From positions 1-26,995 of IMG/VR virus record IMGVR_UViG_3300042520_002149: a DNA stretch of 26,995 bases. One strand, 5' to 3'. Made by a program: the position numbers and the translations under genes. This DNA is from a virus. Each line of letters begins with the position of its first letter. The stretch's first letter is position 1. This document shows, one piece after another, positions 1 to 26,995 of the stretch. The notes below the pieces were generated by a model that was given only the letters and a program-made list of their open reading frames with translations, ran no database searches and was not told the origin of the DNA.

Positions 1-283
1 CGATCGCCGCGTTGTACACCGCGCGGAGTTGCTTCTCCGGCAGCGCCATGAGATCGGTCAGAATGATGTCGGTCTCCCGCTCCCGCTTGATGAGCATGAC
101 GCTGGTGCCATCGCCATTGCAGAGGGTCTCGGTTTTGTAGCCTCGGTAGGAAGCTGCGGAGATCGCCGATTCCATGTAGCAATCCTGCATGGTGTAGACC
201 GCCCGCATTCCTGCGAGGCGGAAGAAGTTGTCCCAATCAATGCCGGTGCGCGTGAGCGTCCGTTTTTTCTCGGCGAGCTTCAC
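1..283 (-). CDS. Hypothetical early phage protein (partial, runs off left edge)
   Basis: The reading frame begins at a GTG (281-283) and stays open for 94 codons to the window edge, so the C-terminus is missing. The start is chosen because an excellent Shine-Dalgarno sequence, AAGGAGGTCAT, lies just upstream on the minus strand. The start falls inside the end of the preceding 60-aa gene (4-base overlap). The visible protein starts MKLAEKKRTLTRTGIDWDNF and contains a MRAVYTMQDCYMESA segment and the later stretch TSVMLIKRERETDIILTDLM. I do not recognise a family. It lies downstream of the Bet annealase, where a partner exonuclease or another recombination or replication gene is often found, but nothing visible shows a nuclease motif. 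The frame is convincing; the function is unknown. Confidence 0.7.
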   Translation of the reverse strand, partial: MKLAEKKRTLTRTGIDWDNFFRLAGMRAVYTMQDCYMESAISAASYRGYKTETLCNGDGTSVMLIKRERETDIILTDLMALPEKQLRAVYNAAI

Positions 284-462
284 ATGACCTCCTTCCATGC
301 GTGGTTGATCGCGTTAGAAAGCACCTGTGCCTTCGCGATGTTTTGTTGGTAGAGCAGTGCTTCCTTTTTGGCCTTGAGCGATGCCAAGGCCATTTTGAAT
401 GCGTCCTTAAAGATCCGCCACTCGGCATCAATCGCCTCGCGTTGAACGGGTTCGTGGCTCAT
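280..462 (-). CDS. Small hypothetical phage protein (60 aa)
   Basis: A 60-residue protein starting MSHEPVQREAIDAEWRIF, charged and predicted mostly helical, with no recognised domain. The start at 462 is supported twice. Its ATG overlaps the TGA stop of bet in an ATGA junction, and AAGGAGGAAGGACAGCAAC immediately precedes it, one of the few strong ribosome binding sites in this window. An upstream in-frame start would add only ten poorly supported residues within bet. Being coupled to bet suggests an accessory role in recombination or early DNA metabolism, but that is inference from position only. Confidence 0.7.
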   Translation of the reverse strand: MSHEPVQREAIDAEWRIFKDAFKMALASLKAKKEALLYQQNIAKAQVLSNAINHAWKEVM

Positions 463-1196
463 GGTTGCTGTCCTTCCTCCTTGTCGCCCCAATCGGCCTC
501 GGGCATCTCGGCGAGATCGAGCGTTGGCTCATCTGCCGGTTCAGCTTCGACCACCTCGGGCTTTGCTTTGGCTTCGGCCTTCTTCGCCGGTTCGGCCTTG
601 GCGAACGGATCGATGATGCCGGTGATCGATGCAGGTTTCGGTGTCACATTGCGGGTGCCAGCGATGTCGGTCGCCTCATCCTCATCGAAGATTCCTCCGA
701 TGCCGAAGGCCACGCGGATCGCTTGGATCATCACCTTGTTGCGGATCATCCGGCGTGGCATTTGATTCCATGGGTCAGTGTTGCGGCGGCATTCCTCAAA
801 GTACTCGGTGACCTTCACCGGGTGAGCGCGGTTCTTGAGGTAGATTTCGCAGGTAGCATGGGTTGGTGTTTTGCCGTCACCGAAGACTTCGACGCTCATG
901 CCGTCATAATTGTCCTGGCGGTTGGCGATCTTCAGCCAGCCATCCACGCCGACCATAGGCACGATGCCTCCGCCCTTTTTCGGGAAGGCGTACATTTCCT
1001 TGAGCAGCGGGTTGAGCTGATAGGTGTTTGCGGTGACGACAAGCGCCAGCATCTCCTCGTCGGTCGCGCCTTTGAAGACGGTGCTTTTGAGGGTCTGGTG
1101 CAGCTTTGCCGGATCGACATTGCAGCGGGAGGCCATGAGATGCATCGCCGATGGCTTCGGCGCGTGGGTGGTAGTGGTAGCGATTTCGGTTGTCAT
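459..1196 (-). CDS. bet: Phage recombination protein Bet (Red-beta/RecT-type annealase)
   Basis: A single-strand annealing protein of the lambda Red-beta family, 245 aa against 261 in lambda. Family landmarks are visible in order: QLNPLLKEMYAFPKK, IVPMVGVDGWLKIANR, a YDGMSVEVF segment, TCEIYLKNR, HPVKVTEYFEECRR, then PWNQMPRRMIRNKVMIQAIR and VAFGIGGIFDEDEA. These match the conserved core of lambda Bet closely. The last 60 or so residues are a low-complexity, Ala/Glu-rich acidic tail (about residues 180-245), typical of the variable C-terminus that contacts partner proteins. Known role: it binds and anneals ssDNA made by a phage 5'-3' exonuclease during recombination and repair. No exonuclease is seen here; it may lie beyond the left edge. 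The start at 1196 is preceded by ACACCCCA rather than a Shine-Dalgarno sequence. The stop overlaps the start of the next gene. Confidence 0.95.
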   Translation of the reverse strand: MTTEIATTTTHAPKPSAMHLMASRCNVDPAKLHQTLKSTVFKGATDEEMLALVVTANTYQLNPLLKEMYAFPKKGGGIVPMVGVDGWLKIANRQDNYDGMSVEVFGDGKTPTHATCEIYLKNRAHPVKVTEYFEECRRNTDPWNQMPRRMIRNKVMIQAIRVAFGIGGIFDEDEATDIAGTRNVTPKPASITGIIDPFAKAEPAKKAEAKAKPEVVEAEPADEPTLDLAEMPEADWGDKEEGQQP

Positions 1197-1215
1197 ATGT
1201 TTTGGGGTGTTCTCT

Positions 1216-1440
1216 TTAATTCATTGAAAGAGGCGCGGTATCAAATTCCAGCGATGGTATGGCTTTCATACTTTTCGTTTTTTCCATCATTCGCTGCGCA
1301 TCCATCGAGGCTTTTGCAAGCGATATAACTTTGCCAACAGTGTTGTTCATCTCCACCGCTTGCACGGGTTTGATCGTTCCAAGCTCTTGCCCTTCCGCGA
1401 GGCGCTCTAAGTATTCCATCCAGTAGGTTGCTTTTTTCAT
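1216..1440 (-). CDS. Small hypothetical early protein (74 aa)
   Basis: Starts MKKATYWMEYLERLAEGQEL and ends LEFDTAPLSMN; 74 aa. The start at 1440 is chosen because its ATG overlaps the TGA of the zinc-ribbon gene upstream (ATGA). The longer frame reaching to 1542 would lie inside that gene. The central stretch (VQAVEMNNTVGKVISLAKASMDAQRMM) looks helical and resembles the short helical proteins often encoded beside phage annealases, but I recognise no named family. It sits 19 bases ahead of bet in the same operon. The DNA here is AT-richer than in bet. Confidence 0.65.
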   Translation of the reverse strand: MKKATYWMEYLERLAEGQELGTIKPVQAVEMNNTVGKVISLAKASMDAQRMMEKTKSMKAIPSLEFDTAPLSMN

Positions 1441-2138
1441 TGTTGTATTTTTTTCAGTTGCCGGTGGAATTTTAGGTGCATCCGCTTGAGTTCCACCAAC
1501 TCTCGCGGAATATCTTTTGGCTTTAGCGATGTCCCATCGCATATAAGTTCTTTAATGTAGCAATCACGAAGCTCAGTAACAGCCCTGCGCCAGAATGCTT
1601 TTTGGTGTTTCCGGTTTTGTTCTATATGGCGCTCTTTGTTGTCAGTTACCCATCTTCTCTTCGCTAATTTTTGAATTTCTTTTGCTCTAGGGTTACATTT
1701 ACGCCTTTCCAGACATTGCTTGTTATAACAACTCTTACATCTTGAGGTAACCCGACCAGATTCTTTGTGTATGCCGCCTTGCATGTAGAATGAATCAATA
1801 GGCAGAGTTAATAAACAACCTATGCAAACACGAAAGCCGCATGGTACTAATGCTTTCAGTTGCCGATATAGATCTAATTCCTCTGGTTGTCGGTGGGGTT
1901 TTAGCGGTTTCAGTTGCCGGTATGATTTCAATTCCTCCCGCTTAATCTGAATTAACTCTTGCGTAATATCTCTTCGTTTTAATTGAGTACCTTTGCACAA
2001 AAGATTTTTAATGTAGCAATCACGAAGCTCAGTAATAGCGCGGCGTCTGTATCGGCTCCGTTGCAAAGAACGCTTTTCTGGATTTCTTGTTCTCATTCGC
2101 TTTGTTTTTTGGTCGCTTAAAAGGAAGCATATCACCAT
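1437..2138 (-). CDS. Zinc-ribbon protein with a duplicated flanking domain
   Basis: About 233 aa, very basic, in conspicuously AT-rich DNA. A C4 zinc-ribbon-like centre (Cys105, Cys108, Cys134, Cys137; CIGC and CKSC) resembles the ribbon found in phage HNH/endonuclease VII-like proteins, but no HNH catalytic segment is visible. It is flanked by two copies of a 45-residue helical domain (about 31-76 and 184-229) sharing a TELRDCYIK core, then a Lys/Arg-rich segment ending in RQLK. The duplication is also seen in DNA as an exact 29-bp repeat (1551-1579 and 2007-2035). A shorter degenerate copy (YRQLKPL, YRQLKAL) lies near residues 73-96. The start at 2138 forms a TAATG junction with the preceding stop; a start at 2096 (Met15) is possible. 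Likely a nucleic-acid-binding protein; its activity is unknown. Confidence 0.7.
   Translation of the reverse strand: MVICFLLSDQKTKRMRTRNPEKRSLQRSRYRRRAITELRDCYIKNLLCKGTQLKRRDITQELIQIKREELKSYRQLKPLKPHRQPEELDLYRQLKALVPCGFRVCIGCLLTLPIDSFYMQGGIHKESGRVTSRCKSCYNKQCLERRKCNPRAKEIQKLAKRRWVTDNKERHIEQNRKHQKAFWRRAVTELRDCYIKELICDGTSLKPKDIPRELVELKRMHLKFHRQLKKIQQ
1551..1579. repeat. 29-bp direct repeat, copy 1
   Basis: Exact copy of 2007-2035, inside the zinc-ribbon gene. It encodes the ELRDCYIK core of the C-terminal copy of the duplicated domain. Identity this high between domains that otherwise differ at many residues suggests recent duplication or gene conversion. Confidence 0.9.
2007..2035. repeat. 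29-bp direct repeat, copy 2
   Basis: Exact copy of 1551-1579, encoding the ELRDCYIK core of the N-terminal copy of the duplicated domain. The two copies are in direct orientation 456 bp apart (a multiple of three), so recombination between them would delete the zinc ribbon and leave an in-frame single-domain protein. Confidence 0.9.
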
Positions 2139-2437
2139 TAAACGCCCGGCAATTCCGGTTGATCAGGATCTGGGAGCTTCGAGGTAATAGTGGATTGGTA
2201 TGTCGCAGAGAATCGGACGGTCGTTTCGATCGTCGCGGCCTCCAGATCGACGGCGGCGGAGATGGCGAGCTTCAGCGGCGGGAATTTCTTTTCATTCGCG
2301 TTGCTCTCTTCGATGTTCTCATGCCAGGCGCGGAGGATGTCGGCGGAGCGTTCCTGCATCGCTTCGCGGGCTTGTGAGACGATGGTCTCGATGAACGAGT
2401 CCATCCGGTCGTTTGATATAGTGTTGATTTCGGGCAT
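2138..2437 (-). CDS. Hypothetical early phage protein (99 aa)
   Basis: Starts MPEINTISNDRMDSFIETIV. An N-terminal helical half (to about residue 45) is followed by KFPPLKLAISAAVDLEAATIE and alternating hydrophobic residues consistent with beta strands, ending LPDPDQPELPGV. The start at 2437 is favoured over the longer frame (to 2587), which lies inside the neighbouring gene. An ACACCCA leader precedes it without a Shine-Dalgarno sequence. Similar short proteins occur in early regions of other phages as far as I recall, but I cannot assign a function. Its stop overlaps the start of the zinc-ribbon gene (TAATG). Confidence 0.65.
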   Translation of the reverse strand: MPEINTISNDRMDSFIETIVSQAREAMQERSADILRAWHENIEESNANEKKFPPLKLAISAAVDLEAATIETTVRFSATYQSTITSKLPDPDQPELPGV

Positions 2438-2448
2438 TGGTTTGGGTG

Positions 2449-2799
2449 TTAGGAAATGAGGCGATGCGCCATTTGGCGGATTTGGATCGAGCGGCGCTTC
2501 ATGGCGTTGACCTGCGAATCGAGGCGCTGATAGACCTCGCGGCACTCGTCGAAGGTGCAGTGGTTGATGTGGCGGTAGCCGGGGCAACCGGGGCCGCTAA
2601 TAATGATACCCTCCGAGTGCTGAGCCAGTGATCGGATCTTGCGTTCGTTATAGCCGAGGCTCGCGGCAATCTGCTTGGCGTTCACCCAGCCATTAGCCGA
2701 CGACCAGAAAAGGAAATCGATCAACTGATCAACCTCCGCCGCTGCCGGCGCTGGCATCCTCTTCGCTTCAAAATCAAAGTCACATTGGGTGGCGGTCAT
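2449..2799 (-). CDS. Small HTH / winged-helix-like protein (116 aa)
   Basis: The centre (about residues 37-56, GWVNAKQIAASLGYNERKIR) reads as a helix-turn-helix. It is followed by a loop and strand GIIISGPGCPGYRHI that could be a wing. The C-terminal third is helical and basic. This is the architecture of small DNA-binding proteins in phage replication or regulatory regions. The ATG at 2799 overlaps the end of the upstream 62-aa gene by 20 bases and is preceded by AACCCACCCCGAAAA, another C-rich leader without a Shine-Dalgarno sequence. DNA binding is inference from the helix pattern; no partner or target is visible. Confidence 0.6.
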   Translation of the reverse strand: MTATQCDFDFEAKRMPAPAAAEVDQLIDFLFWSSANGWVNAKQIAASLGYNERKIRSLAQHSEGIIISGPGCPGYRHINHCTFDECREVYQRLDSQVNAMKRRSIQIRQMAHRLIS

Positions 2800-2968
2800 T
2801 TTTCGGGGTGGGTTGGATGTTCAGCTTTCGGCGGTTGGCCTCGCGTTCGAGTAGGACGAGGCGCTTCTTGCCCCAGCTTCCGAGGTAGTCGCTGCGGCTG
2901 TGACGCAGGTTCTTGATCGCCTCGATCAGCGCGGTGTCGTCGCATTTGGTTAGGTCGAATCCGGTCAT
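2780..2968 (-). CDS. Small hypothetical protein (62 aa)
   Basis: Starts MTGFDLTKCDDTALIEAIKN, continues with an Arg/Lys-rich helix (LVLLEREANRRKLNI) and ends NDRHPM. The start at 2968 lies four bases after the previous gene's TAA (TAACACCATG). The longer frame to 3103 would run through that gene. The DTALIEAI...LEREANRR pattern suggests a small helical hairpin. No family is recognised. Confidence 0.6.
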   Translation of the reverse strand: MTGFDLTKCDDTALIEAIKNLRHSRSDYLGSWGKKRLVLLEREANRRKLNIQPTPKNDRHPM

Positions 2969-2972
2969 GGTG

Positions 2973-3212
2973 TTAGGCGTTGAGCTTCCGGTGTGCGGCC
3001 TCGGTGATGAGCACGCCGTTGCCTTCGGCGGGCGCGAACTTCTCGACTTGGTGTTCGAGCATCTGGAGCGCGAGCACCTCGCGCGCTGTGTGCGGCATGA
3101 CAAGGTGCATGGTCTCAGCGCGTTGAATCGTGCGAACGCTGTCTTGATATGCGGTTCGCTCGGCGATGATGACCGTCGGGCGCTGAATGCGTTGAGTGAT
3201 GGGAAAGATCAT
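2973..3212 (-). CDS. Small hypothetical protein (79 aa)
   Basis: Starts MIFPITQRIQRPTVIIAERT and ends VLITEAAHRKLNA. It is polar with mixed alpha/beta character and has no recognised motif. The start at 3212 is chosen because the longer frame (to 3314) would overlap the coding end of the membrane-protein gene. The leader is TAACCATAGCTACAACC, again without a Shine-Dalgarno sequence. It is the fourth gene of the leftward early operon. Confidence 0.55.
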   Translation of the reverse strand: MIFPITQRIQRPTVIIAERTAYQDSVRTIQRAETMHLVMPHTAREVLALQMLEHQVEKFAPAEGNGVLITEAAHRKLNA

Positions 3213-3234
3213 GGTTGTAGCTATGGTTAGAGAT

Positions 3235-3513
3235 TCAGATCCGCGGCCGGATCGCGCGGCGGGCCTCATGGATTTGGTTTTCGAGGCCGAGGTGATAGAG
3301 GCGGCCAGACTCACGGGCGGCGACGCCTGCCCAGATCGCAGAGCCGATGGCTGTGGCGATGAGGCCGAAGAGGTAGAGCGGGTTTGCTCCTTCGCGGTTG
3401 TCGATGATCGCTCCTGGTATCCAGCAGACGGCCGCGGCGGTGATCATGAGAGCGAGTGTTGCTTGCAGGGCTGAGGCGCGTGAGTTTCGGTAGTATTTTT
3501 CAGATAGTTTCAT
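3235..3513 (-). CDS. Small membrane protein with two TM segments (92 aa)
   Basis: MKLSEKYYRNSRASALQATL leads into a hydrophobic segment (about 17-38, ending WIPGAII) and a second one (about 47-67, LYLFGLIATAIGSAIWAGVAA), with a charged C-terminus (HEARRAIRPRI). Both ends are expected in the cytoplasm. The start at 3513 follows a strikingly C-rich leader (AACCCAACCCAACCTACCA). A small early inner-membrane protein could serve in superinfection exclusion or host takeover, but no family match is claimed. Confidence 0.65.
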   Translation of the reverse strand: MKLSEKYYRNSRASALQATLALMITAAAVCWIPGAIIDNREGANPLYLFGLIATAIGSAIWAGVAARESGRLYHLGLENQIHEARRAIRPRI

Positions 3514-3530
3514 TGGTAGGTTGGGTTGGG

Positions 3531-3740
3531 TTAGTAGGTGAGAGCAGTTGGAGATGGCGGCGCAGTGCGTGCGTCCTTGAGTTGGATGAGCACCTTTGCG
3601 AGGTCGTAGCGAACGAGGCGATCCACGCGGAACTCGGGGGTGATCGCGCCCTTGCCTTCGAGGGTGGAAATGGTGGCGGGCGAAACCCCCAACTCGCGGG
3701 CCAGTTGGCTCGGCGTAATCAGTCGAGGTTTGATTTTCAC
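3531..3740 (-). CDS. MerR/excisionase-like small HTH protein (69 aa)
   Basis: Residues about 8-28 (ITPSQLARELGVSPATISTL) form a clear helix-turn-helix. They are followed by KGAITPEFRVDRLVRYDLAKV, which resembles the wing and second helix of MerR/AlpA/Xis-type winged-helix domains. This size and fold are typical of phage excisionases and small early regulators, so it may be the directionality factor for the integrase or a Cro/CII-like regulator. The GTG start at 3740 is preceded by GGGAGGGGCGA, a usable Shine-Dalgarno sequence, and overlaps the stop of the upstream 53-aa gene (GTGA). Confidence 0.7.
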   Translation of the reverse strand: MKIKPRLITPSQLARELGVSPATISTLEGKGAITPEFRVDRLVRYDLAKVLIQLKDARTAPPSPTALTY

Positions 3741-3898
3741 TCGCCCCTCCCTTCCATGGCTTCGGCGGTCTTAGTGGTAAGAAGATCGCGGACGACTTCG
3801 GAAACTGACTTGCCGGTGGTGGCTGACTTGGTGGCCAGCCATGTAATCTCCTCTGTGGTGAGGTCTTCGATTGGTAAGGGGATCGTTGCTTCGTGCAT
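3737..3898 (-). CDS. Ribbon-helix-helix-like small regulator (53 aa), first early gene
   Basis: Found by reading the minus strand from the ATG at 3898; 53 residues, MHEATIPLPIEDLTTEEI..., ending MEGRGE. A short strand (ATIPLPI) followed by two helices, the second being KSVSEVVRDLLTTKTAEAM, fits a ribbon-helix-helix (Arc/CopG) regulator, so it is a candidate Cro-equivalent. It is the first gene of the leftward early operon and is divergent from the repressor. No Shine-Dalgarno sequence precedes it. A promoter-like pair (3933-3938 and 3911-3916) would start transcription only a few bases upstream, giving a nearly leaderless mRNA. The start codon lies inside a perfect inverted repeat (3893-3908), so a bound repressor could block it. 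Confidence 0.65.
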   Translation of the reverse strand: MHEATIPLPIEDLTTEEITWLATKSATTGKSVSEVVRDLLTTKTAEAMEGRGE

Positions 3899-3908
3899 GG
3901 CAATGCAC
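3893..3908. promoter_or_regulatory. Candidate operator: perfect inverted repeat GTGCAT-4-ATGCAC
   Basis: GTGCATGGCAATGCAC is a perfect 6-bp inverted repeat with a 4-base spacer and covers the start codon of the first leftward gene. The same half-site ATGCAC/GTGCAT recurs at 3946-3951 and 4000-4005, so the divergent region carries four half-sites in about 110 bp. This resembles a multi-site operator of a Cro/CI switch. Which protein binds is unknown. Confidence 0.5.
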
Positions 3909-3910
3909 AA

Positions 3911-3938
3911 CAAATACGCAATCGCGTGTAGTCGTAAA
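3911..3938 (-). promoter_or_regulatory. Candidate leftward early promoter
   Basis: On the minus strand TTTACG (3938-3933) and TATTTG (3916-3911) are separated by 16 bases. This is a moderate match to -35 and -10 hexamers and is placed so that transcription would begin just before the ATG at 3898. It lies between the candidate operators, as expected for a repressor-controlled early promoter. Consensus matching alone is weak evidence. Confidence 0.4.
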
Positions 3939-3945
3939 GCAAAAA

Positions 3946-3951
3946 ATGCAC
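3946..3951. promoter_or_regulatory. Candidate operator half-site ATGCAC
   Basis: ATGCACGAAAA on the plus strand. Read on the minus strand, the site at the repressor start is ATGCACGGAAAA and the site at the early start is ATGCACGAAGC. The shared ATGCACG(G)AA core across three sites suggests one binding protein. Confidence 0.4.
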
Positions 3952-3968
3952 GAAAAGTGATTTTTTAT

Positions 3969-4005
3969 TTCAGACCACTCACGGAAGGGTGTATTTTCCG
4001 TGCAT
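3969..4005 (+). promoter_or_regulatory. Candidate repressor promoter with operator half-site at the start codon
   Basis: TTCAGA (3969-3974) and TATTTT (3992-3997) have a 17-base spacing and would start transcription at or right beside the ATG at 4004. The repressor mRNA would then be leaderless, as is lambda cI mRNA from PRM. The half-site GTGCAT (4000-4005) overlaps the predicted transcription start and start codon, which would permit autoregulation. Based on sequence matching only. Confidence 0.4.
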
Positions 4006-4405
4006 GAACCCCAGCAAAGAAGACATCAAACAGTGGCTCGCAGCTTATCCCGAGAGGGATAGAGAATGGCTTGCGATCAAATGCGGAACGGCCAAAAGGA
4101 CCGTGGATAACTGGTTATCGACCAAGAAAGAAATGCCGCCAAAAGCAGTACGGATCATTGCTTCACTTATGCGTGAGGACGCCGAGAAAACAAAGGTTCA
4201 GCATGAGCAGATGACGCATCTTTCGATCCCAGCCACCATGGCTGAGTTCAATGCCTGGTCAAAGGCCGCTCTTGCCAAGCAGCAGATCCTCACCGAGTGG
4301 GCTGCGGAGGCGGTGCGTAATGCTTACCAAGATCACCTTGCCGAGTCCGGGCTCAAGGTTGCCAAAGATCCCGCTGAGTATGCAGCAAAGAGAAGGCCAG
4401 TGTGA
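4004..4405 (+). CDS. Cro/CI-type phage repressor (133 aa)
   Basis: The first 50 residues (MNPSKEDIKQWLAAYPERDR, then EWLAIKCGTAKRTVDNWLST) carry a helix-turn-helix around 20-40 in which the GTAKRTVDNWL segment is the likely recognition helix. The rest (about 60-133) is helical and charged and ends KRRPV. No Ser/Lys LexA-type autoprotease domain is present, so induction cannot follow the classic RecA-stimulated self-cleavage route unless another protein acts. It is the only plus-strand gene besides the integrase and is divergent from the early operon, the standard position of a lysogeny repressor. The ATG at 4004 is preferred over a GTG at 3989 because promoter and operator signals overlap 3989. 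Alternative: a Cro-like early regulator. Confidence 0.7.
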   Translation: MNPSKEDIKQWLAAYPERDREWLAIKCGTAKRTVDNWLSTKKEMPPKAVRIIASLMREDAEKTKVQHEQMTHLSIPATMAEFNAWSKAALAKQQILTEWAAEAVRNAYQDHLAESGLKVAKDPAEYAAKRRPV

Positions 4406-4525
4406 TCGCGATGTATCCAGCGCGGTGGGTAGCCAAGTGGGCGTCAATCGTCCACACTTTTACCGTTTCGGTAATGCTTGGGTGACTGTTTCGGTGGTGT
4501 CGCTAACATGGTTTTGTGACGCGAA

Positions 4526-4544
4526 AGGTCCATATGAGGTCCAT
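4526..4544 (+). repeat. Candidate integrase arm-type sites, P arm (AGGTCCAT x2)
   Basis: AGGTCCAT occurs at 4526-4533 and again at 4537-4544 in direct orientation, 11 bases apart (one helical turn). The same octamer recurs on the other side of the tRNA core at 4706-4713. Repeats flanking a core site on both sides are the hallmark of arm-type sites bound by the N-terminal domain of lambda-type integrases. Confidence 0.55.
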
Positions 4545-4592
4545 TTTTAGGAAAATGCCTTAAATCCTTTTGAAATATAGGGTCTTTATGTT

Positions 4593-4638
4593 ATTCGTAA
4601 TGAGCAGGTCGTCGGTTCAAATCCGACCAGCGGCTCCA
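4593..4638 (+). other. attP core: 3' half of a tRNA-Thr(CGU) gene
   Basis: The segment is the 3' half of a tRNA. It has an anticodon loop TTCGTAA (4594-4600, anticodon CGT), a 3' anticodon stem TGAGC, variable region AGGTC, a perfect T arm GTCGG-TTCAAAT-CCGAC (4611-4627), a 3' acceptor strand CAGCGGC, discriminator T and encoded CCA (4636-4638). The 5' half is absent: the bases before the anticodon loop pair poorly and no GCCGCTG acceptor strand lies upstream. This is what a phage carries to restore a tRNA gene after integrating near the anticodon loop. Phage genes lie on both sides and the integrase reads away to the right, so this is attP rather than attL or attR. Confidence 0.8.
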
Positions 4639-4696
4639 GTTTTCCTAGGTTTTAAGCCACTCTTGTTTTTTTCCTGTTTGCGGTTTTTGGCTCATA

Positions 4697-4713
4697 AGGT
4701 ACATTAGGTCCAT
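4697..4713 (+). repeat. Candidate integrase arm-type sites, P' arm (AGGTACAT, AGGTCCAT)
   Basis: AGGTACAT (4697-4704) and AGGTCCAT (4706-4713) are direct repeats matching the pair left of the core. They end five bases before the integrase ATG. Integrase bound here would therefore cover its own promoter or translation start, suggesting autoregulation. Confidence 0.5.
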
Positions 4714-4718
4714 AAGAA

Positions 4719-5789
4719 ATGGCGCGCGCACCTGAGATCAAACCGTTCAAGACCGACCAAGGATGGCGGGTGAACATCCCGAAGAGCATGGCTGCCGATG
4801 GAAAGCGGCACAAAAAGTATTTCCGCACCGAATCGGATGCGAAGCGGTATGCTGGTAAGCTAAGGTCGTCATACGCCTCGGGGGTGCGCGGCTCGACGAT
4901 TCCCTTGGAGGTGGCCGTGCAGGCAACCGAGGCGCTGCGTCTGCTCGAAGGCACCGGCATAGGCTTGCTTGAGGCGGTGAAGATCGTTGTGAAGCAAATG
5001 GCGACCTCTGGCGCGCAGGAAACCTTCTCTCAGCGGTACGATCGAGCGGTGCTTGATGGCGAGGGCCGCTGGTCGAAACGATACCGGCAGGACATGGATC
5101 GGCTCCTGCGCTGGCTGCCGAAGAAGTTCCTATCCCTCCCCTGCGGCACGATCGACCGCGCGGTTGTCGAGGCGGCGCTTGTGCAGGATCGGCCATTGGC
5201 TCGCTCCACAATCGACGCCAGGGCGACGCGGGTGCTGGCGGTCCTTCACTACCGCGAACGGCATCGGAAGAGCACCGAGATCAAGATCCTCACGCTGGCG
5301 GAGGTCGAGGCAGTGCTCTCGCATTGCCAGTCGGTCGACGAGCGCCGCGTGGTGGCTCTCCTCGCCTTTGCGGGCATCCGACCTGATGCGGAGTCGGGAG
5401 AGGTCGCGCGGCTCGACTGGGAGGCCGTGGGAGCGAAAGAAATCTACATCGCGCCTGCCGTCTCGAAGACCGGCGCGGATCGCCACATTCCGCTGACGCC
5501 GCGGCTGCGGGCGGAGATCGATGGTCATCCTGCCAGCGGGCCGGTGCTGCCTGCGGGTTGGCGGCGATCATGGCAAAGGATTCGTAAGGCGGCGGGCATT
5601 GCCGGTGAACAAGATATCCTCCGGCATTCGTTCGCGTCGCACTACCTCGCGGCGACAGATGAAGCGAAGGCCAAGGCGGCGATGGGTCACACGGCTGGAT
5701 CATCGACCTTGTTCCGGCACTACCGGCGGGCCGTGACGCAGGCCGATGGCCTCGCTTACTTTGGTATCAAGCCTTTGAGTAAAGGTTAG
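4719..5789 (+). CDS. int: Tyrosine-family phage integrase
   Basis: A 356-aa site-specific recombinase. The N-terminus (about 1-60, including HKKYFRTESDAKRYAGKL) resembles an arm-site-binding domain. Residues about 100-185 form the core-binding domain, and 190-350 the catalytic domain. Catalytic positions are visible: Arg221 (FAGIRPDAESGEVARLDW), Lys250 (SKTGADRHIPL), Arg302 in LRHSFASHY, His324 (MGHTAGS) and nucleophile Tyr335 (FRHYRRAV). The first His of the usual HxxR box appears to be Asp299, a position known to vary in the family. It integrates the phage by recombination between the adjacent attP and a host tRNA-Thr gene. The ATG at 4719 directly follows AGGTCCAT repeats; the ribosome binding site is weak. 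The gene runs opposite to the late operon and overlaps the end of the small gene at 5767 tail to tail. Confidence 0.95.
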   Translation: MARAPEIKPFKTDQGWRVNIPKSMAADGKRHKKYFRTESDAKRYAGKLRSSYASGVRGSTIPLEVAVQATEALRLLEGTGIGLLEAVKIVVKQMATSGAQETFSQRYDRAVLDGEGRWSKRYRQDMDRLLRWLPKKFLSLPCGTIDRAVVEAALVQDRPLARSTIDARATRVLAVLHYRERHRKSTEIKILTLAEVEAVLSHCQSVDERRVVALLAFAGIRPDAESGEVARLDWEAVGAKEIYIAPAVSKTGADRHIPLTPRLRAEIDGHPASGPVLPAGWRRSWQRIRKAAGIAGEQDILRHSFASHYLAATDEAKAKAAMGHTAGSSTLFRHYRRAVTQADGLAYFGIKPLSKG

Positions 5790-22310: not shown

Positions 22311-23252
22311 TTAAGCGGAGATCACGCGGTGACCGGCGAAGTCGGTGATCGCGCCGGCGCTGCCACCTTGCTTGCCGACTGCGGAGCCGTAGAGCATGGT
22401 CACGGTGAGGGTGAGATCGAGCGTGCCTTGCTTCTGGCCGAGGATGCCGAGGAGCGAGAGACCGCTGTTCGGGTCGGTGACGACTTCGGTCGTGACGACT
22501 TGCGGGATGCCGTATTGAGCGGCAAGCTCGCTGGAATCGTCAGGAAGGCCGGTCCAGATGACAATCGACTCAGGTGAGAAGAACGCACCAGTAAGGTTGC
22601 CAGCGGTCGGAAGGTCGGGATACTCCACGATCTTCTCGAAGCCACCAAGACCCTCAAGGACCACATAAGGGTCGCCAGCGAGGCGTTGGCCGTAGAAGTC
22701 GCCCGAGGAGATGCGGGTGTCGGCCATGAGGGCTTCGGCGAAGTCGCTGTTGACGATACCGTAGCGCTTGGCAGGAGCTTTCTTCGAGTTGAGAGCCTTG
22801 CGAACCGTGCCGAGTGTGTCGCGGTCGGTGTTGGCAATGGTCTCAGTCGTCGACTGGCTGACATTCGTGGCGGTGAACTTGGCGAGGGCCGAATCAACGA
22901 CCGACTTGGCAAGCACATAGGCAGCATCACCAATGGCACCGGCGAGCGCGTCCTTCTTGTCGGCGATCGCGTTGAGGTGAGTGAGGCTGATGGTGACATG
23001 CTTGTGACCGTCGGCGACAATCGGCACATCGGTGAGCAGGCTGCGAGCTTCGGAGGCACCATTGAAGTAGCCACCTTGCGCTGCATCGTAATCAGCAGCG
23101 CTGGGGAGCGTGCGGATGTGAGCATAGCCGGATTGGCCCTTCTTCATGCGGGTAGCGGTGAAGTCGGTGGACATCATGCCCAAAGCGGGCACGCGGGTTT
23201 TGAACGAGTCGAGCGTTGAGCTCAGGATCTCGGAGACGGTAAGTGTGGGCAT
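22311..23252 (-). CDS. Major capsid protein (HK97-fold type)
   Basis: 313 aa; MPTLTVSEILSSTLDSFKTR, then VPALGMMSTDFTATRMKKGQ, an ADGHKHVTISLTHLNAIADK segment, a long helix around the AGAIGDAAYVLAKSVVDSAL stretch (spine-helix-like), GIVNSDFAEALMADTRISSG and a C-terminal beta domain. Size, position after the protease/scaffold and the internal layout fit an HK97-fold capsid subunit. The start is preceded by ACACCCCACAATT with no Shine-Dalgarno sequence and the end is followed by a terminator. No separate gpD-like decoration gene is obvious nearby. The family subtype is not determined. Confidence 0.85.
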   Translation of the reverse strand: MPTLTVSEILSSTLDSFKTRVPALGMMSTDFTATRMKKGQSGYAHIRTLPSAADYDAAQGGYFNGASEARSLLTDVPIVADGHKHVTISLTHLNAIADKKDALAGAIGDAAYVLAKSVVDSALAKFTATNVSQSTTETIANTDRDTLGTVRKALNSKKAPAKRYGIVNSDFAEALMADTRISSGDFYGQRLAGDPYVVLEGLGGFEKIVEYPDLPTAGNLTGAFFSPESIVIWTGLPDDSSELAAQYGIPQVVTTEVVTDPNSGLSLLGILGQKQGTLDLTLTVTMLYGSAVGKQGGSAGAITDFAGHRVISA

Positions 23253-23291
23253 AATTGTGGGGTGTGCTTGGGGTTAAAAAATGCGGGGATT

Positions 23292-23756
23292 TTAGTTTGA
23301 GCCTTGGGCCCGGAGTTTTTCGGCGAGCTTGCCGAGGCGGTACTTTTCGGTCGGGCTTGTGGTCGCCTTGATTTCGGCGAGCACGCTTTCGAGCGATTGG
23401 GCTTCCGCGTTGTCCGGCGACACATTCACGGGTGCGCTGGAGCTACGGCTGGCGATGGCGGCGGCCTTGGCGGCGACTGCCTCGTCGATGGAAAGTTGGT
23501 TGGCCTTCAGCGCGGAGATCTCGCCTTGCAGCGATTCGAGCGTGGCCTTGAGGTCGCCGATGATCTCGGTGGCGGACTCTTCCTTGGGCTCATCAGCAGG
23601 AGAGCTTTCGGTTTCGCCTTCTGGTGCAGATTCAGGAGCTGCCTCTTGTTCACCTTCCGGTGCGGATGGGGCGGCTTCGTTGGTGATTTCCGCAGCAATG
23701 GTTTCGACCGATGCGACGACTTCTTCGGATGGGGTGCTGGCGACTTGTTCGCTCAT
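23292..23756 (-). CDS. Putative nested scaffold protein from an internal start (154 aa)
   Basis: Within the S49 gene an in-frame ATG at 23756 (Met278) is preceded by GCGGAAGATGGC, a usable Shine-Dalgarno sequence. The product, MSEQVASTPSEEVVASVETI..., is an acidic Glu/Ala/Pro-rich stretch followed by a helical coiled coil (ATLESLQGEISALKANQLSI) and a basic end (EKYRLGKLAEKLRAQGSN). This is the arrangement of lambda C/Nu3, where the scaffold is made separately from the same frame. Expression from the internal start is inferred. Confidence 0.5.
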   Translation of the reverse strand: MSEQVASTPSEEVVASVETIAAEITNEAAPSAPEGEQEAAPESAPEGETESSPADEPKEESATEIIGDLKATLESLQGEISALKANQLSIDEAVAAKAAAIASRSSSAPVNVSPDNAEAQSLESVLAEIKATTSPTEKYRLGKLAEKLRAQGSN

Positions 23757-24587
23757 GCCATCTTCCGCAGTGTCAACTGCGCGAAGCGGAGAGGATCCGG
23801 CTTTGCCTGCTTGCGAAGCATTGCGGACCACGGTGGCGAGGCCCAGCGATTCGGCCTGCGGGCCATAAAATGTCTGCCCTTGCATCGCCTCAGTAGGGAT
23901 CTTCCGACCTTGGCGCGTGACGGCGGATTTGAACTCGCCGAATACCTGATCGATGCGCTCTTGGATCAGCTCGCGCTGTGACTCGGTGAGTGATGTGCCA
24001 GGGAAACCGGCGGCCTTAAACTTGCCGGTGGTGAAAAGCTCGACCTTCACGCCGAGCATCTCGGCGCGTTTGCTCTGATCGATGTGCGGGACCATCACGC
24101 CGATGGATCCGACCGATGCTGAGCGCGTCATCGAGATGCTGGTCGCTTGTGATCCGAGCCAGTAGGCGGCGGATGCCATGGTGCCGGAGGTGTGCGCGCG
24201 CACCGGCTTGACCTTGGCGGCTTCGTAGATCGCATCGGCGGCCTCGGGGGTGCCGCGAACGGTTCCGCCAGGAGAATCAATGTTGAGCACGATCGATGTG
24301 ACCGCTGGATCGGCGGCTGCGCTTTCAACGGTGGAGCGGACTTCATCGAGGCTGGTCGCTCCGAGCATCACGCGATCGAACTCGTCGGTGGTCGGAAGAA
24401 GCGGACCGGTGATGTTGATCGTAGCGACGCCATCGGCGACGCTCATGATCGACTTGGGCGCTTCACTTTGCGAAAGGGTGAAGAGTTTCCCGGCGGCCAT
24501 GTCCATGGCCAAACCGATGATGCCGTCCATTGCCTCCGGGGCGATGGCCCACGGCTCTTGTGTCAAAATGAAATCGCGTGCGTTCAC
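23292..24587 (-). CDS. S49 head maturation protease with C-terminal scaffold domain
   Basis: 431 aa. Residues about 40-270 are an S49/SppA-type serine peptidase domain: LNIDSPGGTV (102-110), nucleophile Ser139 in SGTMASAAYW, SVGSIGVMVPHID (158-170) and the general-base Lys191 in TTGKFKAAG. The C-terminal 150 residues are an acidic, helical scaffold-like extension. Known role in lambda-like phages: it cleaves the scaffold and other head proteins during capsid maturation. The GTG start at 24587 has an ACACCCCA leader. It lies between portal and capsid, as expected. Confidence 0.9.
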   Translation of the reverse strand: MNARDFILTQEPWAIAPEAMDGIIGLAMDMAAGKLFTLSQSEAPKSIMSVADGVATINITGPLLPTTDEFDRVMLGATSLDEVRSTVESAAADPAVTSIVLNIDSPGGTVRGTPEAADAIYEAAKVKPVRAHTSGTMASAAYWLGSQATSISMTRSASVGSIGVMVPHIDQSKRAEMLGVKVELFTTGKFKAAGFPGTSLTESQRELIQERIDQVFGEFKSAVTRQGRKIPTEAMQGQTFYGPQAESLGLATVVRNASQAGKAGSSPLRAVDTAEDGMSEQVASTPSEEVVASVETIAAEITNEAAPSAPEGEQEAAPESAPEGETESSPADEPKEESATEIIGDLKATLESLQGEISALKANQLSIDEAVAAKAAAIASRSSSAPVNVSPDNAEAQSLESVLAEIKATTSPTEKYRLGKLAEKLRAQGSN

Positions 24588-24613
24588 GCACCGCGTGGGG
24601 TGTCAATTCCCTA

Positions 24614-26038
24614 TCACTTCGCAGGCCCAGTCGGCGCTTCGACCGGCGGCTCAACCGACACACCCGATGCGAAGAGCATCTGGAGCGGGATGTCGTATTT
24701 CTTGGCGAGTTCTTGAAGGTGGGCGATGTCGCGAGCGCGGCGTTCGGCTTCCTCCTCGAAGTCCATGCCCAGCTCGGCGAAGTGATCGGACAAGGTTTTG
24801 AGACCGGCCTTCACATCCTCGCGGTTTTGCAGCGACTCCCGACCAGCATCGACGGTGACGCGGCGCGGGGTGACGACGGAAATCTTCCACCATGCAGGAA
24901 TCAGCGGAATCTCGCCGCGCGTGATGGCATCGCCGATGACGAACTTCCAGACGGGCGTGAGAAAGCGGCGGATGAGGATGTTTTGGCGGTGGGAGAATCG
25001 GCGGTCTGCTTTTGCGACCACCATGCGGACGCCGGCGCCACCGATCTTGCTGGAATCGGCTGCGAACTCGTATGGAACGACACCAAGTGCTGAATCGCGG
25101 CGGAGGTGATCGAGGAAACCGGTAAAGGTGGGCGATGGGCGGTTAGACTCGAAGGGTTTGAGCTCTTCTCCTGGCTTGAGCGCGACCCATTTGCCACCGA
25201 CGATCTTTTGGAGTGCGGTCGGGTCTGATTGGTTGTCGTCCGACTTTCCAGAGTCGATGTCGAGTCCGCCAAATCCGTCGTTGCTGTCGATCTCGCCGGT
25301 TGCGGTCGTGATTGCGAACGATTTGTCGGCGTGATCCTTGAGCGCGTGCTTTTCGAGCGCGAGCAATTCCATCTCATCGCGGATGTGATTGATCGAGTGA
25401 GCTAGTGACGGCACCCCGCGCGCCGATGAAGCTCGCTCTGGATCAAAGATGTGGAGGACGGATGCGGCAGGAAGGTCGACGACGCTGCCGTCATCCTGCT
25501 TCACATGATAGGAAATCGGGCGGCCGTAGCTATCAAAGCGGATGCCATCGACGCTGCCATCGCCATTTCCACCACTCACACGGTGGCTTTCGATGAGTTG
25601 AATCACTGGGCGGCCATCAACACGGGTGAGGTGAACAAAAATGTCGCCATCTTCGTCGATCGCGCGGCAGATGAGCATTTCGCACTCGGAGAGGGAGAAT
25701 CGTCCGGTGATTTCGCACTGGTTCGACCATTCCTCCCAGTATTCGAGCGTGCTGGCGATCCACTCGCGGTCTTCGGTCTTTGGTTGGATCTTGAGACCAT
25801 CGCCGACTGAGTAGACGGCCATGTCGAAGACCATCTCGCGGGCAAAGCCGCTGTTCTTCATCAAATAGCGGCTGCCCTTGATGATTTCGTTGCGGACAAG
25901 CGGCGTGGTTTCCTTCCGATGATCCTGCGGAGCGGCGGCGGGTAGGCGTTGGCGCACCGATGATGGGTTGGCGCTCTCGTAAGGTGACCATCCGAAGGCG
26001 GATGCGCCCATTTTGGTGATTTTTTGCAGCAGGTTCAT
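24614..26038 (-). CDS. Phage portal protein (lambda gpB family)
   Basis: 474 aa from the ATG at 26038; MNLLQKITKMGASAFGWSPY. Family signs: TPLVRNEIIKGSRYLMKNSG, GFAREMVFDMAVYSVGDGLK, FVHLTRVDGRPVIQLIESHR, VLHIFDPERASSARGVPSLA (a highly typical portal motif), then ALEKHALKDHADKSFAITTA and a C-terminal LKTLSDHFAELGMDFEEEAE-type helix. It forms the dodecameric ring at the head vertex through which DNA enters. The ATG overlaps the stop of the gpW-like gene (ATGA); an upstream frame to 26068 is the spurious extension. Length is a little below lambda gpB (533). Confidence 0.9.
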   Translation of the reverse strand: MNLLQKITKMGASAFGWSPYESANPSSVRQRLPAAAPQDHRKETTPLVRNEIIKGSRYLMKNSGFAREMVFDMAVYSVGDGLKIQPKTEDREWIASTLEYWEEWSNQCEITGRFSLSECEMLICRAIDEDGDIFVHLTRVDGRPVIQLIESHRVSGGNGDGSVDGIRFDSYGRPISYHVKQDDGSVVDLPAASVLHIFDPERASSARGVPSLAHSINHIRDEMELLALEKHALKDHADKSFAITTATGEIDSNDGFGGLDIDSGKSDDNQSDPTALQKIVGGKWVALKPGEELKPFESNRPSPTFTGFLDHLRRDSALGVVPYEFAADSSKIGGAGVRMVVAKADRRFSHRQNILIRRFLTPVWKFVIGDAITRGEIPLIPAWWKISVVTPRRVTVDAGRESLQNREDVKAGLKTLSDHFAELGMDFEEEAERRARDIAHLQELAKKYDIPLQMLFASGVSVEPPVEAPTGPAK

Positions 26039-26286
26039 AGGGAAAATGGCCCGGTGCCGGACTGACATGTGCGGCGAGTCTTGCCGTAGGTGAACGGATC
26101 GAGCTTGCGGAGAGCGTGCTGGCAGGCCGCGATGATCTCTTTGGTGTCATCGAGGCGCTTGTATGTGATCTGCGATCCCGACTCTTGGAAGCTGATCATC
26201 AGTTTCTTGAGTGTCTTTTTGTTCTCTTCGAGGATCTCGACCACCTCTTCGGTGGAAAATCCTGTCGTCATGTCGAGGGCCGCCAT
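26035..26286 (-). CDS. gpW-like head-tail joining protein (83 aa)
   Basis: MAALDMTTGFSTEEVVEILE, a Lys-rich helix, QITYKRLDDTKEIIAACQHA and a basic tail. The central 'ITY...L...I....' segment resembles gpW, the small alpha/beta protein that stabilises packaged DNA at the portal. Its position between terminase and portal is the gpW position in lambda. The start at 26286 lies 16 bases after the terminase stop with AGAGGG nearby; Met at 26271 is an alternative. The long frame to 26439 overlaps the terminase gene and is rejected. Confidence 0.7.
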   Translation of the reverse strand: MAALDMTTGFSTEEVVEILEENKKTLKKLMISFQESGSQITYKRLDDTKEIIAACQHALRKLDPFTYGKTRRTCQSGTGPFSL

Positions 26287-26302
26287 GCCCTCTGACAAGT
26301 TG

Positions 26303-26995
26303 TCAATCTTCAGCGGCTTCCTGCTCGGTCTCGCGGCCAAGGATTTTGAGCATGAAGGCAAAGACTGTCGCCATTGCCTCGCAGTCGAGAAGGTGGTTCG
26401 GGCGCTTCTGGATCCGCGTCCATTGCCAGCGGTCACCATCCTTGATCCGCATCTCGGATTCCAGTTGGCTTAGGTAGGCAATCTTCTTTTCGTCGTTGTC
26501 CGCCTCGGTGAAGGCGTCGGTAGGAACCTCCCATGTCGGCCCGCGTGCCGGATCTTGATTGCGCCGAATTCTAGCCATCGCGTCCTTGATGTTGAGGTTG
26601 CTCCAATAAAACATCTGCGCGGTCTTGCCGGCGGCGACATGAATTGACCTTTTGGGCGAGTAAAATCTCTCCAATGACTTCACCCGGACGCCGACGCCCA
26701 GCCTCTGCTTGAGTCGGTGCGTCCATGTGGCCTTGCGGTCGCCCATCAGCGCCACCCATCCATGCTCGGCGCAGCGCTGGTAGACCTCATAGCTATTGAA
26801 TCCGGCATCGACGCCGACGAGTGAAGATGAAACGCCGTATTTTTCCTGCTTTTCCTGCAACTCTTCCCAGGTGTGGGCCGTGCCCCAGTCGATCCGGCGG
26901 CTGGATCCATCGGGGCTCCATTGGGTGATTAACCACCAGAAGTGATCCATTTGGACATCGACGGTCATCACCCGCAGCCGCACCGGAGGTTCATC
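26303..26995 (-). CDS. Terminase large subunit, C-terminal part (GpA family, partial at right edge)
   Basis: 230 codons visible plus stop; the frame stays open to the window edge (DEPPVRLRVMTVDVQMDHFW). MTVDVQMDHFWWLITQWSPD is the first nuclease-domain strand with its metal-binding Asp, WVALMGDRKATWTHRLKQRL follows, and NHLLDCEAMATVFAFMLKIL is the conserved closing motif containing another acidic ligand. This is the headful/cos-cutting nuclease part of GpA-type terminases; the ATPase part lies beyond the edge. It begins the head gene cluster, consistent with a lambda-type head module. Confidence 0.85.
   Translation of the reverse strand, partial: DEPPVRLRVMTVDVQMDHFWWLITQWSPDGSSRRIDWGTAHTWEELQEKQEKYGVSSSLVGVDAGFNSYEVYQRCAEHGWVALMGDRKATWTHRLKQRLGVGVRVKSLERFYSPKRSIHVAAGKTAQMFYWSNLNIKDAMARIRRNQDPARGPTWEVPTDAFTEADNDEKKIAYLSQLESEMRIKDGDRWQWTRIQKRPNHLLDCEAMATVFAFMLKILGRETEQEAAED

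Follow-up and report, generated by a model that had tools for sequence, protein, structure and literature searches.

A probable phage attachment site at the anticodon loop of Verrucomicrobiales tRNA-Thr(CGU) and the modular inheritance of its parts

We analyzed a linear virus record of 26,995 bases (hereafter, the window), the right end of which cuts a terminase gene, and found that it very probably carries, in non-integrated DNA, the attP of a temperate tailed Verrucomicrobiales phage that adjoins a lambda-type integrase gene (int), undergoes exchange with tRNA-Thr(CGU) at the anticodon loop and is inherited in a modular manner. In the mechanism that we propose, the N-terminal domain of the integrase would bind paired arm repeats on both sides of a tRNA-derived core, and strand exchange with the tRNA-Thr(CGU) gene of the host, at its anticodon loop (TTCGTAA), would be the task of the core-binding and catalytic domains. 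With the 5' half supplied by the host and the 3' half by the phage, integration would rebuild a working tRNA beside int (attL); a fragment of the tRNA 3' part would remain at the opposite end (attR).

Anatomy of the attachment site

Direct reading of the sequence and motif counts identified four arm-type repeats on the plus strand, namely two left copies of AGGTCCAT (4526–4533 and 4537–4544), a right copy of AGGTACAT (4697–4704) and a second right copy, again AGGTCCAT, within the int leader (4706–4713), all in direct orientation. The motif AGGTMCAT occurs five times in the 27-kb window, compared with an expectation of 0.85, and four of the five copies lie within 188 bp at attP. Because the spacing is 11 bp on the left and 9 bp on the right, and the distance to the core is 49 nt on the left and 58 nt on the right, the arms are symmetrical, as originally proposed, only approximately. 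Between them lies the common core (4593–4638, plus strand), a tRNA-Thr(CGU) 3' half that begins in the anticodon loop and ends with CCA. It was delimited by the 46 nt over which it is identical to host tRNA genes, including 22 complete ones. On re-reading 4500–4720, the coordinates in the original prediction for the arm repeats, the tRNA 3' half and the integrase start were reproduced; of the boundaries 4594–4638 given for the tRNA half, the end at CCA stands, whereas host identity begins one base earlier, at 4593. ARAGORN detected no complete tRNA and Rfam no family match in the window, in agreement with the proposal that the tRNA 5' half is absent beside the core. The site is an attP of the ordinary kind, in which a tRNA 3' half lies between predicted integrase docking sites. 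Its resemblance to the lambda-type system extends to the core between arm-type repeats and to an integrase with an N-terminal beta-beta-beta-alpha domain and a catalytic C-terminal part. It differs in that int lies directly downstream of the right arms, in that each side has just two repeats, all direct, and in that an IHF-like site was not found in the attP region, where scans for the IHF consensus, sigma-70 promoters and terminators gave no match.

The adjoining gene (4719–5789, plus strand) encodes a tyrosine integrase of 356 amino acids, residues 1–63 of which form the predicted arm-binding domain. Its catalytic domain is that of a tyrosine recombinase, as indicated by PF00589 (E = 2e-7, above the cut-off), phrog_1 (E = 2e-17) and the invariance of Arg221, Lys250, Arg302, His324 and Tyr335 in the integrase alignment. 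In tyrosine recombinases the His-to-Tyr spacing is about 9 and the HxxR motif usually contains His; here, Tyr335 stands 11 residues after His324, and Asp299 takes the place of the HxxR His. The modelled integrase, in which confidence is modest (mean pLDDT 61.8; 69–89 in the blocks covering residues 1–50), contains strands at residues 9–12, 15–20 and 31–35 and a helix at 38–54, that is, the three strands and helix of an N-terminal arm-binding domain, and its best PDB fold match by Foldseek was lambda Int, with alignments to the full-length protein. As modelled, the integrase is of the lambda, heterobivalent type, and arm binding is predicted. Because the right arm pair ends five bases before the int ATG at 4719, it is also plausible that the arm sites in the leader would repress int.

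The host tRNA gene and the probable crossover point

A pattern covering two versions of the tRNA 3' half (described below) was scanned over 84,980 GTDB genomes; every one of the 34 stretches that it matched came from a record titled Verrucomicrobia (Akkermansiaceae, Verrucomicrobiaceae, Luteolibacter, Haloferula and Prosthecobacter). Thirty of these sit in complete tRNA-Thr(CGU) genes, and 22 of the 30 are identical to the window over the 46 nt from 4593 to 4638, with divergence beginning 5' of 4593 and at the end of CCA. The core accordingly matches the 3' part of a host tRNA at every position, and the predicted integration product for the window core is an ordinary tRNA. The 22 complete genes, all from Verrucomicrobiota by record title, bear out the earlier proposal that tRNA-Thr(CGU) is the attachment target and that an identical 3' half would be found in bacterial genomes. 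The further proposal that tRNA-Thr would reveal the host lineage holds to the level of the order (Verrucomicrobiales) and no finer. We also considered tRNA-dependent lysogeny, in which a phage tRNA replaces a destroyed host tRNA, and rejected it, as the core is 46 nt long and a tRNA gene is absent from the window, a partial genome.

Thirteen viral contigs encode integrases 72–88% identical to that of the window; a 14th viral relative, G401, was detected by its core, and contig C38 of the MAG REEB478 encodes an integrase 69% identical. We aligned 15 attPs and found that all 15 have in common only TTCGTAATG, at the left end of the core (4594–4602, plus strand), a segment also delimited with host tRNAs and further family members. 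Differences from the host begin immediately on its left in G388 and others, and on its right some relatives read TGTGC instead of TGAGC. Since TTCGTAATG alone is invariant, strand exchange is probably located at the anticodon loop, within this segment, in agreement with the crossover position originally suggested. The right-hand bound would loosen if phages with the second tRNA version use hosts with other tRNA stems.

Several features beside the core recur as well. In 14 of the 15 attPs, across different arm groups, the CCA of the tRNA is followed by TTTT(N)CTAGG or a similar sequence (4639–4649 in the window, and equivalents), and in sites of the G393 type CCTAGG flanks the core on either side. 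Upstream of attP, several relatives whose arms differ have conserved TCGTCCACACTTTTACCG...CGGTAATGCT (4446–4478 in the window), together with a small inverted repeat.

Integrated relatives

At the 30 complete host tRNA-Thr(CGU) genes checked for prophages, we found no close relative, and when 387 genomes of the order were searched with a profile, a circular contig was the only close relative recovered, alongside more distant integrases. The expectation that prophages would end at tRNA-Thr(CGU) was thus not borne out for close relatives at these genes, but a more distant one does lie beside a complete tRNA. In that locus (L087), host hemA, hemC and hemD (heme synthesis) lie upstream of a complete tRNA-Thr(CGU), which is followed by paired GGGCGA repeats and by a 48%-identical integrase cut by the contig end; this is the order expected of an attL. 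Related integrases with 38–44% identity are preceded by tRNA-Thr(UGU) in L085 and L086 and by tRNA-Asn(GUU) in L090, which suggests that the integrase family targets anticodon loops and that the choice of tRNA varies at greater distance. The attL order was seen only for these relatives of 38–48% identity, and no attR was seen for the integrase family of the window. A loose tRNA-Thr pattern gave at least 120 matches in viral contigs. In nine further viral loci with integrases 48–56% identical, a tRNA-Thr type core was present in eight (six CGU and two UGU), so that the arms-core-arms-int anatomy is found in the 15 aligned attPs and in eight of these nine loci. In L240, the attP of a 56% relative, the stretch between the anticodon stem and the T-arm is altered (TGAGAAGGATAAACGTCGG), which makes restoration of a normal tRNA uncertain. 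One candidate tRNA, that of G380, was rejected: the downstream DNA resembled a right arm, but the contig ends without an integrase.

Separately, a 5.9-kb element (L036/L043; JAGWXY010000017.1, 4111–10040) is bounded by a complete tRNA-Thr(CGU) on one side and a repeat of the 3' half on the other, and contains few genes beyond those for an integrase (26% identical) and an HTH_17 protein. Another small mobile element therefore appears to use the same site.

Probable non-integrated state of the phage DNA

To the right of attP, tail, head, protease, portal and terminase genes are recognizable in the window, with the head and packaging genes (major head protein, S49 protease, portal and the terminase C-terminal part cut by the window end) at 22311–26983 on the minus strand. 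The open reading frames to the left gave no match to any named family in the window, but in related phages, of which three are circular, the same block also stands to the left of attP, and the order of the left block and the int region is common to the window and its relatives. The view that phage genes flank attP on both sides is hence supported by recognizable genes on the right and by the recurrence of the block on the left. The relatives that share the left block (1–4405) and int nevertheless carry at least two unrelated-looking head and packaging sets, with portals 82–92% or about 26% identical.

The window record has no terminal repeat. Identical contig ends occur in G388 (127 bp), G391 (127 bp), G401 (99 bp) and C38 (94 bp), consistent with circular genomes of 32–39 kb, and attP is internal in each. 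A tRNA 5' half beside the core was found in none of the 15 aligned attPs. Searches of phage records with the attP region and of the genome collection with a protein pattern for the integrase gave no match. Given the internal attP in four relatives with matching ends, the preferred interpretation of the window is a piece of phage DNA that was not integrated, most simply part of a monomer circle or of virion DNA, and the original view that the phage was not integrated is upheld.

The junction between two integrated copies in a tandem prophage is also a complete attP, and the contig might therefore derive from a double prophage whose internal junction mimics the free site. Sequence alone cannot separate a monomer circle from a tandem array, and terminal overlaps are expected from either arrangement. 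However, this explanation would have to hold for many independent records with an internal attP, and a complete tRNA-Thr is absent from the scanned stretches of those records; we consider it very unlikely. Less likely still, to the point of being hardly credible, is that the tRNA piece is a decayed gene or chance relic and that the repeats only regulate int: although repeats do sit in the int leader and tRNA-associated integrases are known to autoregulate, with a promoter overlapping the attachment region (PMC2951348), the piece is an exact 3' half from anticodon loop to CCA, with 46 nt identical to living host genes, it is kept in 15 of 15 aligned attPs while neighbouring sequence diverges to about 35%, and the 48% relative sits at a tRNA in a chromosome.

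Modular exchange of arms, N-terminal domain and tRNA half

In the free attP and adjoining int, the parts have different histories, and arm motif and N-terminal domain change together. The attPs were grouped by eye according to arm motif (AGGTCCAT-like, TGGCAAT-like, TTGGGCAG, and GTGGCAC in G401). Integrase residues 1–63 are 85–100%, 80% and 88–100% identical within the first three groups, respectively, and at most 58% identical between groups, whereas residues 190–350 are 83–97% identical in most pairs whatever the arm group, C38 and G401 aside. Similarly, DNA identity between the window and G392 is 78–100% between positions –350 and –100, counted from the core, drops to about 40–60% over the arms and the start of int, and is again 82–98% from +350. 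In a tree of codons 1–63, the two larger arm groups form single clades (supports 96 and 100); a tree of codons 190–276 rejects both clades (p_AU 0.0012 and 0.0010). Six-letter words are common to left and right arms more within groups than between them (permutation test on eight representatives, p = 0.0012), although the window taken singly gives a weak result in this test (p = 0.01) and the arms of the G388 type are degenerate. Adjacency to int accounts in part for the joint inheritance of the right arms with the N-terminal domain; the left arms, unlike the right, lie beyond a separately exchanged core.

The phage tRNA 3' half itself occurs in two main versions that are swapped independently of the arms: version 1, as in the window, and version 2, with a GAGAG/CTCTC T-stem, and the T-arm pairs properly in both. 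G393 has version 1 and G394, G395 and G400 have version 2, with nearly alike arms, and G392 combines a version 1 anticodon stem with a version 2 T-arm. A hybrid of the usual host 5' half and version 2 keeps the cloverleaf fold, with one anticodon-stem mismatch. No host tRNA with version 2 was found in the pattern scan of the 84,980 GTDB genomes or, with up to three mismatches, in the 387 genomes of the order, and the best identity of version 2 to modelled host tRNAs in 260 genomes of the family was 88–90%; of the best 12 places in this comparison, the ten that were read all carry other versions. C38 has version 2, yet the MAG to which it was assigned has a version 1 tRNA of its own, and binning can be wrong. 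For phages with version 2, exact restoration of the tRNA is therefore no more than a possibility, as these searches found no matching host tRNA.

Judged by these comparisons, left arms, right arms and integrase residues 1–63 pass on together as a single cassette, the catalytic part is free to recombine and the tRNA 3' half can be replaced separately. On balance, we favour the idea that the attachment machinery is assembled around an invariant 9-bp segment of the anticodon loop from three pieces, each exchangeable on its own, namely an arm-specificity cassette, a tRNA 3' half that needs only to fold and match the acceptor stem, and the catalytic domain.

Comparison with known systems and implications

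The anatomy described here is already known; the modular exchange of specificity is unusually clear. Cores of 30–45 bp with a tRNA 3' half (PMC10865867) and pairs of putative arm sites (PMC3203893, PMC3706429) have been described. In mycobacteriophage Boilgate (attB-4) and Cluster J phages at tRNA-Leu, 43–44-bp cores lie over the tRNA 3' half with the core at the anticodon loop, and five core mismatches in Boilgate still give a foldable tRNA (PMC10865867, PMC3706429). The window phage is similar in that the core covers a tRNA 3' half and arm sites are paired, and different in its Verrucomicrobiales hosts and its use of tRNA-Thr; moreover, arm motif and N-terminal domain change together here, whereas the sites of Cluster J do not differ systematically according to N-domain type. 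For Cluster K1 integrases (CrimD, Anaya, Adephagia), small arm-consensus changes were proposed to track N-domain substitutions (PMC3203893). The arm motif likewise tracks the N-terminal domain here, but whole domains (at most 58% identical between groups) and wholly different motifs are swapped against a near-constant catalytic domain; the literature that we found contains only single-residue tracking of arms by the N-terminal domain, or none.

The tRNA match ties an otherwise unplaced phage group to Verrucomicrobiales hosts. If the modular scheme is true, cassette exchange would let related phages share one tRNA site without cross-recognizing arms. Several arm motifs, each with its own N-terminal domain, on a near-constant catalytic core provide a natural data set for the arm-recognition code of tyrosine integrases.
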